NCBI GenBank assembly: GCA_015065845.1
Contig: SVPQ01000003.1
Location: 62,001-126,000, forward strand
DNA from: Oscillospiraceae bacterium
Lineage (GTDB): Bacteria; Bacillota; Clostridia; Oscillospirales; Acutalibacteraceae
DNA length: 64,000 nucleotides
Reading direction: 5' to 3'
A program made the position numbers and the translations under genes. Positions 29,444-35,160 of this stretch are shown here, in pieces. The first letter of the stretch is position 1. Each line of letters starts with the position of its first letter. The notes beneath the pieces are model-generated. The model saw only the letters and a list, made by a program, of their open reading frames with translations. It had not been told where the DNA came from and did no database searches.

Positions 29444-30082
29444 CTATATATCAAGCTCACTATAATTATGAATATATATATCCACAAGATTTTTCAATTC
29501 TTCCTGACAAGGTTCACTTTTGTCATATATACCTACAACATTATAACCTGCTTTTTTTGCGGTTTTTGCGGCATATAACGCATCTTCAAAAATCCAGGTA
29601 GTCTGCTTTTCTGTACCCAATTCATTCAAAACAACATCGTAGACCTTTGGTTCTGTTTTAGAAGCGCCGACTGTGTATGTTGAATAAATTTCTTCGAAAT
29701 AGTGAAGCATATTGAATTTTTCAAGAACAGCAATAAGTGCAGGTTCACCTGTCGCGGTGGCAATACCCATTTTTACACCTTTAGATTTTAATTTTTCTAA
29801 AAATTCAATAATATCATTTTTAGGTTCTGTATCAGCAAGATATTTTTCTTTTATCAAACTGAAAAACTCGTTAAAAAGTTCTTTATCAGTCATTTTTAAA
29901 TCAAATCGTGTTTTTGCAACTTCTATTGCCTCTAAAAGAAAAAGGTTTTTAAATTCTTCTCTTTGTTCTTCTGAAAGTACAAGACCGATTCTGTCAAAAA
30001 ACTGGAATTTTACGCCTTTCCATATATGCATAGAGTCAAAAACTGTTCCGTCAAAATCAAAAATTGCGCCTGTAATGTTCAT
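29444..30082 (-). CDS. HAD phosphatase/phosphoglucomutase-like
   Basis: This 212-residue HAD subfamily IA protein has the nucleophile motif IFDFDGTVFDSMHIW, a helical cap (residues about 15-85), the Thr motif MGIATATGEP, Lys in GASKTEPKVY, and the acidic motif TWIFEDALYAAKTAKKAG. This pattern fits beta-phosphoglucomutase-like and sugar-phosphatase members. The ATG at 30082 has GGAG 6 bases before it; a TTG four codons upstream overlaps that site. It heads the operon with the DUF1349 and metallophosphoesterase genes, and its upstream region is the double cloverleaf repeat. Confidence 0.85.
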   Translation of the reverse strand: MNITGAIFDFDGTVFDSMHIWKGVKFQFFDRIGLVLSEEQREEFKNLFLLEAIEVAKTRFDLKMTDKELFNEFFSLIKEKYLADTEPKNDIIEFLEKLKSKGVKMGIATATGEPALIAVLEKFNMLHYFEEIYSTYTVGASKTEPKVYDVVLNELGTEKQTTWIFEDALYAAKTAKKAGYNVVGIYDKSEPCQEELKNLVDIYIHNYSELDI

Positions 30083-30138
30083 TGTGTTCTCCAATCGTAT
30101 TTATCTTTCATAACATCTAATTCAACACCATTTATAAC

Positions 30139-30232
30139 GATTATAGTTAGTCGAAACAGTGTAAAATTACACTGTTTCGATACCAAATCATATATTTGGT
30201 ATCGAATTTTCTTTGAAAATTCGACTATAATC
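30139..30232. repeat. cloverleaf 1: outer stem enclosing three adjacent hairpins
   Basis: The outer stem GATTATAGT (30139-30147) pairs exactly with ACTATAATC (30224-30232). Inside, three hairpins abut: 30152-30179 (13-bp arms, CGAAACAGTGTAA), 30180-30202 (9-bp arms, ATACCAAAT) and 30203-30223 (9-bp arms, CGAATTTTC). Only the four bases TAGT after the outer 5' arm are unpaired. It has no anticodon arm or T loop of a tRNA. Confidence 0.8.
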
Positions 30233-30237
30233 CTTTC

Positions 30238-30341
30238 AATGACTGTAATGCAAAATTGTGTTTATGAAAAACAATTTTGCTAAAAGCCGATAAAATCGGC
30301 TTTTACGAAACGCAACTGCGTTTCAACTAATTACAATCATT
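30238..30341. repeat. cloverleaf 2: outer stem enclosing three adjacent hairpins
   Basis: The outer stem AATGACTGTAAT (30238-30249) pairs with ATTACAATCATT (30330-30341) with one mismatch. It encloses hairpins 30250-30280 (GCAAAATTGT arms), 30281-30305 (TAAAAGCCGAT arms) and 30307-30324 (GAAACGCA arms). The right end overlaps the last codons and the stop of the DUF5412-like gene. It starts 5 bases after cloverleaf 1 and has the same plan with unrelated stem sequences. Confidence 0.8.
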
Positions 30342-30655
30342 ATTCTGGCAGTATCTTCATCAATCCATTCTATTTCTGCTTTTTCACATTTATAATTCCA
30401 ATAAAGATTTCTATCTCTGCCAGTTTCGTTATCTGTAGCAGTACAAAGCACGGCATAATCAGTTGTCGCACCACCATTATTAAGATATGCGGTAACTGTA
30501 TACCGACCATCCGGTGATGTACTCTTACTTAAAAAATCCTGCCCGTCAATTCTTTGAATATAAAAAAACGCACAGTGTATAATATAAACAATTAATGTTA
30601 TTAGTAATATTGGTATAAAAATTATTTTTACCTTTTTTCTTTTACATTTTTTCAC
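30323..30655 (-). CDS. DUF5412-like membrane-anchored protein
   Basis: This 110-residue protein has one N-terminal membrane segment (IIFIPILLITLIVYIIHCAF) and an outside domain: STSPDGRYTVTAYLNNGG, ATTDYAVLCTATDN, NLYWNYKCEKAEIEWIDEDT. This matches the DUF5412 pattern of small Firmicutes surface proteins of unknown role. The start is set at GTG 30655, 8 bases after AGAGGA; a GTG eight codons upstream is also in frame. The stop codon lies within the outer stem of cloverleaf 2, so the repeat reaches into the coding end. Confidence 0.7.
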   Translation of the reverse strand: MKKCKRKKVKIIFIPILLITLIVYIIHCAFFYIQRIDGQDFLSKSTSPDGRYTVTAYLNNGGATTDYAVLCTATDNETGRDRNLYWNYKCEKAEIEWIDEDTARIMIVIS

Positions 30656-30697
30656 TATATTGATTCCTCTATCATCCACGAATTATTACTTATATCA

Positions 30698-31237
30698 TCA
30701 ACCGAAATGTAGGGTTTCATCTGTTTTTTTATAGTGAATAATACCAATAATAAATGGTACAAATCCTAAACAAGAAAGCATTGATGCAACAATAAAACCT
30801 ACTTTATCATCATCTTTGTGAACTATGAGATAGTCTTCGTAAGACCATATATAATCATCACCATAAAATAATGAATACAAATAAGCTTTATCCGATATAC
30901 TTACTGTGATTTTATCACCACTTCTTAAAGATAATAACTCACTCTCTTTTATTGACTGAAAAACCATCTCATCTATTTCCAATGGTTCTTCGTATTCTTC
31001 AACATATATGTAGTAATGATTATAAACGCTTCCTCTTGCACCTTTTTTCTGTTCAAATTCATATTTTACAAATGTACAATTTTCATAAACAAGTGTTTCT
31101 GCTGGTGGAGGGTCATCAATCATAAAGTAAATTAAACTCACTAAAAAGAGCATACCAACACCAGCAAAAAATAAGCTTTGTACAAAAAACATTACTTTAT
31201 TTAATTTCGGTGAAATTACTCTGTATTTTTTTGCCAT
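30698..31237 (-). CDS. DUF3592-like membrane protein
   Basis: This 179-residue protein has membrane segments near both ends (VMFFVQSLFFAGVGMLFLVS and FIVASMLSCLGFVPFIIGII). A beta-rich domain lies between them (CTFVKYEFEQKKGARGSVYN, RSGDKITVSISDKAY). The architecture resembles DUF3592 proteins, with a small beta domain between two helices. Function unknown. It is 42 bases upstream of the DUF5412-like gene on the same strand and may be co-transcribed. Confidence 0.65.
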   Translation of the reverse strand: MAKKYRVISPKLNKVMFFVQSLFFAGVGMLFLVSLIYFMIDDPPPAETLVYENCTFVKYEFEQKKGARGSVYNHYYIYVEEYEEPLEIDEMVFQSIKESELLSLRSGDKITVSISDKAYLYSLFYGDDYIWSYEDYLIVHKDDDKVGFIVASMLSCLGFVPFIIGIIHYKKTDETLHFG

Positions 31238-32303: not shown

Positions 32304-32468
32304 ATTTTTCTTTACTGCATCCTTTCATTAAGTTTTTTGATAATTAAATTATACATAGGTAGGTGAAAAAATAAAAGGTATTGTTTGGATTATTATTATC
32401 ATTGTTGGTTGATATTATCATTAACTTTTCTATAAAATCAATTTCGTTTGTCAAAAGAGTACCATAAT

Positions 32469-32690
32469 CACGGCGTAGCCGTGGATATCATCAATTCCGT
32501 AAGGAATTGCATATCATCAAAGCAACGCTTTGTATATCATCATTGCGAAAGCAATTTTGATACACACCTAAAGGTGTGATGATATACAGTCCTGACGGAC
32601 TGATGAGATACAACGATAGCTTTGCTATCGTTGATGATATGCCATTGCTTTCGCAATGGATAAAAAAAGAACTAAGCTTTCGCTTAGTTC
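32469..32690. repeat. hairpin array 1: nine hairpins with complementary linkers
   Basis: Hairpins lie at 32469-32483, 32492-32509, 32518-32532, 32542-32555, 32563-32578, 32587-32602, 32611-32633, 32642-32659 and 32669-32690. Linkers in the left half read ATATCAT (three times) and in the right half ATGATAT or ATGAGAT (three times), so left linkers can pair with right linkers to make a nested, branched fold. The last hairpin, with flanking A and T runs, is the terminator-like unit also found beside tRNA-Tyr at 35049-35070. This and the next terminator account for most of the gap between 32304 and 32806. Confidence 0.85.
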
Positions 32691-32734
32691 TTTTTTGTCT
32701 GTTACGAACAATTTAGATGCCACTTTGTTTTTGA

Positions 32735-34619: not shown

Positions 34620-34847
34620 CCTGAATGCATATCCTCGTGTAATCACAAGGATTTTATATCACAAAATTTAAAGTAAAAATATTTAATCTAACTGTTTTGA
34701 ATTTGGAAAATAGTGTTGCTTGGTGCTTTAATGCTTTGACACAACAATGCGATATCAGTTGCAAGTTATTCTGAATAAATAAACAAATAGTTTTTCGGCA
34801 TAGTACCACTCCCTGTTTACGAGTATACTATGAATTATCAATAAAAT

Positions 34848-35070
34848 CAACGGCTTTGCCGTTGTATATCATCAATTCCGTAAGGAATTGCATATCATCA
34901 AAGCAACGCTTTGTATATCATCATTGCGAAAGCTTTTTTTATTTATACACGCTACGCGTGATGAGATACAACAACGGCTCTGCCGGTGTTGATGATATAC
35001 AGCCTGACGGCTGATGATATGCCATTGCTTTCGCAATGGATAAAAAAAGAACTAAGCTTTCGCTTAGTTC
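34848..35070. repeat. hairpin array 2, abutting tRNA-Tyr
   Basis: This array has the same plan as array 1. Hairpins sit at 34848-34864, 34873-34890, 34899-34913, a broken one at about 34923-34940, then 34948-34960, 34969-34991, 35000-35013, 35022-35039 and 35049-35070, with ATATCAT linkers to the left and ATGATAT linkers to the right. Hairpins 2, 3, 8 and 9 are identical to array 1. Hairpins 1, 5, 6 and 7 have different stem bases that still pair. Hairpin 4 has lost its right arm. The last hairpin is the tRNA terminator. Confidence 0.85.
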
Positions 35071-35076
35071 TTTTTT
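35042..35076 (-). terminator. terminator of the tRNA-Thr/tRNA-Tyr transcript
   Basis: GAACTAAGC (35049-35057) pairs with GCTTAGTTC (35062-35070). On the minus strand it follows directly on the tRNA-Tyr CCA and ends in seven Ts. Confidence 0.9.
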
Positions 35077-35160
35077 GGTGGGAGCGGGTGGATTCGAACC
35101 ACCGAAGGCGGTGCCAACAGATTTACAGTCTGCCCCCTTTGGCCACTCGGGAACACTCCC
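35076..35160 (-). tRNA. tRNA-Tyr (GTA)
   Basis: An 85-base class II tRNA with encoded CCA. The acceptor GGGAGTG pairs with CGCTCCC, the anticodon loop reads CTGTAAA (anticodon GTA), a long variable arm is present, and the T loop is GGTTCGAATCC. It lies 20 bases downstream of tRNA-Thr in the same transcript. Confidence 0.97.

Follow-up and report, generated by a model that had tools for sequence, protein, structure and literature searches.

The locus and its double-cloverleaf fold

The window, by which we mean the whole stretch of 64,000 nucleotides of Oscillospiraceae DNA that was analysed, holds at 30132-30343 a short segment that runs into the end of a DUF5412 gene and has a HAD-family hydrolase gene on its other side. 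Only spurious ORFs lie inside this segment, whose parts and neighbours are as follows.

29444-30094, minus strand: HAD-family hydrolase gene, downstream of the DUF5412 gene; its start overlaps the DUF5412 stop (ATGA) in G018, a relative without the element
30132-30343, plus strand: whole element, TTAT-[AACG...CATT]-AT, with boundaries common to dozens of dispersed copies
30134-30135, plus strand: left AT core of the target TT-AT-AA; AT in 46/47 complete copies, flanking TT variable, and the TT at 30132-30133 is host sequence
30136-30343, plus strand: net insertion of 208 bp, defined by empty sites and by the reading frame restored on removing 208 bp
30136-30157, plus strand: left bipartite terminal inverted repeat, AACGATTATAGTTAGTCGAAAC; ungapped consensus of 15 distant members
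30139-30232, plus strand: cloverleaf 1; outer stem 30139-30147/30224-30232, hairpins 30151-30180, 30182-30200 and 30203-30223
30232-30241, plus strand: inner junction between the two units, CCTT-TC-AATG; most relatives have CATT-GC-AATG, and an AT core never occurs
30238-30341, plus strand: cloverleaf 2; outer stem 30238-30249/30330-30341, hairpins 30250-30280, 30281-30305 and 30307-30324
30320-30341, minus strand: right terminal inverted repeat, AATGATTGTAATTAGTTGAAAC as read on this strand; ungapped consensus of 15 distant members
30323-30679, minus strand: DUF5412 gene truncated by the element (PF17428, E 1.6e-34); the element provides the stop and last 5 codons
30342-30343, plus strand: right AT core, host sequence resuming at 30344 (empty sites, core counts, frame test)

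Free folding of 30139-30341 returns two units, each with an outer stem closing three hairpins and few bases left unpaired, and so bears out the two side-by-side cloverleaves that a sequence-only reading had proposed here. The minimum free energy is -80.9 kcal/mol for the RNA (z -14.3) and -59.8 kcal/mol for the DNA (z -16.0), with 0/200 shuffles as good, and the opposite strand gives the same two-unit picture (z -16.6). That reading had called the stem sequences of the two units unrelated, which is right for the hairpin stems and wrong for the outer arms, as the latter are variants of one motif, AATGRTTRTAG...GTCGAAA. Its observation that the second unit reaches the stop codon of the DUF5412-like gene holds, the element itself supplying the stop and the last codons. 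Of its repeated structural element in tandem the structural element stands, while the tandem is not its essence, both cloverleaves being parts of one mobile element. Whole elements do occasionally lie in tandem sharing a TTAT, also within long contigs.

Two hairpin arrays elsewhere in the window (32462-32700 and 34845-35077, with hairpins linked by ATATCATCA/TGATGATAT) form a dispersed repeat family present in 14/40 relatives, including G034 from another family of the order. Both arrays end in the same terminator-like hairpin, and the DNA fold of the first has a z of -14.7. Our cloverleaf model R1 recognises neither; the proposed relation to the arrays at 32.5 and 34.9 kb thus survives in concept only, these being a different dispersed hairpin family.

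Dispersal, empty sites and the interrupted gene

Searching the region 29900-30700 against 40 related genomes recovered exactly the stretch 30132-30343 many times at unrelated places, which makes it a dispersed repeat and not a local tandem. Complete copies are present in the host genome G000 (five) and in G001, G018, G012 and G008, with many partial copies at contig ends, and searches with the end pattern gave the same copy counts as the focused sequence search. Several species of the genus carry about 5-15 copies per genome, G034 at least 12 (about 64-76% identity) and G489, from another order, at least 7; all genomes are draft metagenome assemblies with many copies at contig ends, and these copy numbers are lower bounds. 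With a covariance model the family was found in 11/295 sampled genomes of the order, one of them the host, and outside the order in G489. Scanning 84,980 species genomes with a pattern yielded 47 matching stretches, all in Clostridia/Oscillospiraceae metagenome assemblies and most of them labelled ruminant gut. Among viral contigs there were two pattern matches only, in apparent coding sequence and without the fold, which we attribute to chance, and the plasmid and phage records searched contained no match. The copies are mostly intergenic, many of them just upstream of genes, and lie on either strand relative to their neighbours.

Not all copies are full length. Seven shortened ones with intact ends (L066, L069, L088, L098, L110, L112, L176) are reduced to a single cloverleaf or one long hairpin, suggesting that a unit, or even the ends alone, may suffice to occupy a site. 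Three others (L139, L155 and L158, in G206 and G264) have the second hairpin enlarged to about 60 nt, giving elements of 252-254 bp with the same overall fold.

Empty sites give the exact length of the insertion. For the insertion at G001:C9, five relatives with the same flanking genes (G000, G011, G015, G018 and G021) have an empty site with a single TTAT, and the filled site is exactly 208 bp longer than theirs. At the window locus, taking out 208 bp (30136-30343) brings the DUF5412 frame back to ...DTARINGVELDVMKDKYDWRTQ, as in relatives, whose proteins end ...INGVELDVMKDKYDWRTQ; with the element in place the protein ends ...DTARIMIVIS and the original C-terminus is lost. Since the DUF5412 stop overlaps the HAD start in G018, the element here probably separates a formerly coupled DUF5412-HAD gene pair. 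The orthologous locus of G018 (L002, G018:C13) is without the element and keeps 15 bp of its end (TTATAACGATTATAG) with two extra in-frame codons, a scar that reads as loss of the same insertion by imprecise deletion.

Ends and target

Both ends carry a 22-bp bipartite inverted repeat, AAYGRTTRTAGNNNGTCGAAA, with fixed spacing and no gaps in 15/15 distant members; by inspection the element ends read AAYG...GTCGAAA. About 50 insertions give TT-AT-AA as the target: the central AT is present in 46/47 complete copies, TT on the left in 39/52 and AA on the right in 31/49. The element's right-hand TT is constant and the left-hand dinucleotide varies (GT, CT, TA, TC, AG), so that any target duplication amounts to AT at most; an AT crossover would look alike in the empty sites, the core counts and the reading frame. 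When the element ends are joined they make a 46-bp palindrome, GTTTCGACTAATTACAATCATT-AT-AACGATTATAGTTAGTCGAAAC, similar in appearance to an attachment site whose crossover lies at AT. The sequence where the two units meet is like this end junction, with GC, TC, GA or CA at the position of AT (18/18). Several insertions (e.g. L023, L025, L036, L044) lie in a -10-like TTATAAT or immediately before a ribosome-binding site, and since TTATAA is part of the ends, the junctions recreate a -10-like box.

The fold is conserved across bacterial families

Folded without constraint, 14/14 representatives from at least ten genera form exactly two four-way junctions, each with three hairpins (z -7.5 to -15.9), an architecture that about 2% (0-7%) of shuffles give, and they do so at 56-75% identity to the window copy, against a shuffled baseline of about 49%. 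When 29 copies from two families are aligned, 92.7% of cells fit the pairing of the named structure, and 21 pairs have changed on both sides, a number reached by 0/500 shuffles and set against 6-11 pairs in slid controls. The sequence-only reading had spoken of a topology kept without sequence, suggested a search for similar four-way junctions in relatives, and held that single-sided mutations breaking most stems would count against it. The relatives agree with the first in all 14 folds, conserved ends excepted, and supply two such junctions per element; in place of broken stems we find the paired cells and two-sided compensations just given. The idea that the element is recognised by structure alone is weakened by the discovery of the conserved 22-bp ends.

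What the element is and how it might move

With its dispersal, boundaries, empty sites, target, inverted repeats, conserved topology and compensatory changes observed, 30132-30343 is very probably one copy of a dispersed, gene-less, non-autonomous (MITE-like) mobile element; the class of its enzyme and the role of its fold we infer. If the fold worked as a structured non-coding or cis-regulatory RNA carried between genes, the very stable RNA fold and the many copies just upstream of genes would be accounted for, but the copies stand on either strand relative to those genes and an Rfam covariance-model search returned no family at threshold. The best weak match, EF3314_EF3315, scored 24 bits against a cut-off of 100 and is a low-score hairpin alignment. 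Selection on an RNA should moreover leave more G.U than A.C intermediates on the modelled strand. The G.T and A.C intermediates in distinct columns number 12:12 in the genus and 7:10 in G034, and with no such excess the fold is more likely a property of DNA than of RNA. A stable transcript, which the sequence-only reading had proposed to look for by RNA-seq, is not indicated by the Rfam result and the unfavoured G.U, and we consider an RNA function highly improbable. The balance of G.T and A.C is also what would be expected if replication template-switching copied arm onto arm, so that the palindromes maintained themselves and stems stayed paired without selection. The process is known for imperfect palindromes and described in PMC7202029 and PMC8604942, hairpin-deleted copies exist, and compensatory changes alone can arise by such correction without selection. 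Template-switching explains paired arms, yet not the exact 3+3 hairpins, the two four-way junctions and the fixed ends in every lineage, and we think it unlikely to be the whole account.

As to the enzyme, the element could possibly be an ordinary MITE whose 22-bp terminal inverted repeats are recognised by a DDE transposase that duplicates 2 bp (AT), with the cloverleaves as by-products. Bipartite repeats with fixed spacing at both ends, copies that are dispersed and mostly intergenic and a symmetrical TTATAA target all suit such an enzyme, but 2-bp duplications do not usually have so strict a core as this AT, and such an enzyme does not on its own account for the invariant double cloverleaf. 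The symmetrical TA duplication of IS630-type MITEs (e.g. RUP) is contradicted by the empty sites and the reading frame, and eight draft genomes yielded no IS that has such ends. We judge it improbable that a Y1 transposase (IS200/IS605 or RAYT) reads the hairpins and inserts the element as a single strand 3′ of TTAT. A cut after TTAT would suit the left flank, which is NNAT with a preference for TT, and the lack of a larger duplication, and REPINs likewise show compensated hairpins (PMC3116915); such a cut would not, however, need the preference for AA on the right, which is almost as strong as that for TT on the left. Strong Y1 matches occur in 8/16 element-positive against 0/12 chosen element-negative genomes (p 0.008, Fisher, phylogeny uncorrected), but in the larger sample of 295 genomes the counts are 6/11 against 73/284 (p 0.07, Fisher, phylogeny uncorrected), and none occur in G000, G008 and G151, several element-rich genomes being without any. 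The single multi-copy IS200-like element inspected, in G132, has neither cloverleaf ends nor TTAT flanks. An R1 match beside a Y1 gene of G034 turned out to be only a terminator-like hairpin.

We tentatively favour a recombinase-type, serine-recombinase-like exchange, which we hold to be slightly likelier than a DDE transposase with a 2-bp duplication, since the joined ends form a palindrome with a putative AT crossover. Serine recombinases need a strictly identical central dinucleotide and have relaxed flanks. The AT of 46/47 complete copies agrees with this and is also compatible with a 2-bp duplication; the core is strict, its flanks are degenerate, and the inner junction has AT in 0/18 cases. 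Among large serine recombinases a multi-targeting one has been reported whose core is TT and whose flanks are T/A-rich (PMC10083194), and bipartite 25-bp attP half-sites are known (PMC3783163). Serine recombinases of PF00239 do not track the element, with none in G008, a fragment in G034 and many in element-free genomes, and no end-like half-sites lie beside the PF00239 genes; G008 and G034 may have lost a cognate recombinase. Among the candidate families in which the mobilising enzyme was sought none was identified as a partner, and a search of eight draft genomes, allowing up to 3 mismatches in the ends, found no larger or autonomous element and no parent IS that shares them.

In the recombinase-type model an enzyme supplied in trans would read the 22-bp inverted repeats, and an exchange of strands within the AT of a TTATAA-like site would join the element to its target, leaving AT at both element ends. 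The internal cloverleaves would act as folded DNA, either in the single strands of replication or transposition or as extruded cruciforms. The fold may serve such single-stranded intermediates or may persist by template-switch correction of palindromes, and the two are not mutually exclusive. It is doubtful, though conceivable, that mobility depends on folding into two DNA four-way junctions, a class previously undescribed in Clostridia; the mobilising enzyme or the replication fork would then read the fold rather than most of the sequence, and a putative recombinase would exchange strands at AT.

Significance and comparison with known systems

Few repeats keep their fold from one bacterial family to the next through changes in most of their sequence. 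The anatomy of this one is sharp, with two four-way junctions, a 22-bp bipartite end, a candidate AT crossover, solo-unit variants and empty sites. The mobile DNA of gut Clostridia gains with it a little-described class that breaks assemblies and truncates genes, and the question arises which enzyme moves cloverleaf-folded DNA. We regard the element as MITE-like, with REPINs its nearest counterpart in concept, and its fold as undescribed; a full-text search of the literature open without subscription found no description of a double-cloverleaf mobile element.

Like bacterial MITEs the element is short, gene-less, AT-rich and mostly intergenic with a stable fold, and it is multi-copy, dispersed, without a transposase of its own and flanked by terminal inverted repeats. 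It differs from them in that no parent IS was found, in a duplication of at most AT and in an internal architecture, two four-way junctions, that stays fixed from family to family. The ends of IS200/IS605 elements and integron attC sites are folded single-stranded DNA with structure conserved more than sequence. Here the likeness is one of working; in our element the whole length is folded, and the ends have a conserved double-stranded inverted repeat. With the attachment sites of large serine recombinases of the multi-targeting class (PMC10083194) it shares a strict central dinucleotide, an AT-rich relaxed target and a palindromic bipartite end junction, but there is no recombinase gene inside and no association in the tested genomes, and the comparison is one of likeness. 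From the REPIN/RAYT system it is set apart by its 22-bp bipartite ends, by six hairpins in two cloverleaves with no REP hairpin pairs by inspection, and by a weak Y1/RAYT association. What it has in common with REPINs is to be a non-autonomous inverted-repeat element, to occur in tandem clusters and to show the compensatory hairpin changes reported in REPINs with RAYT transposases (PMC3116915).
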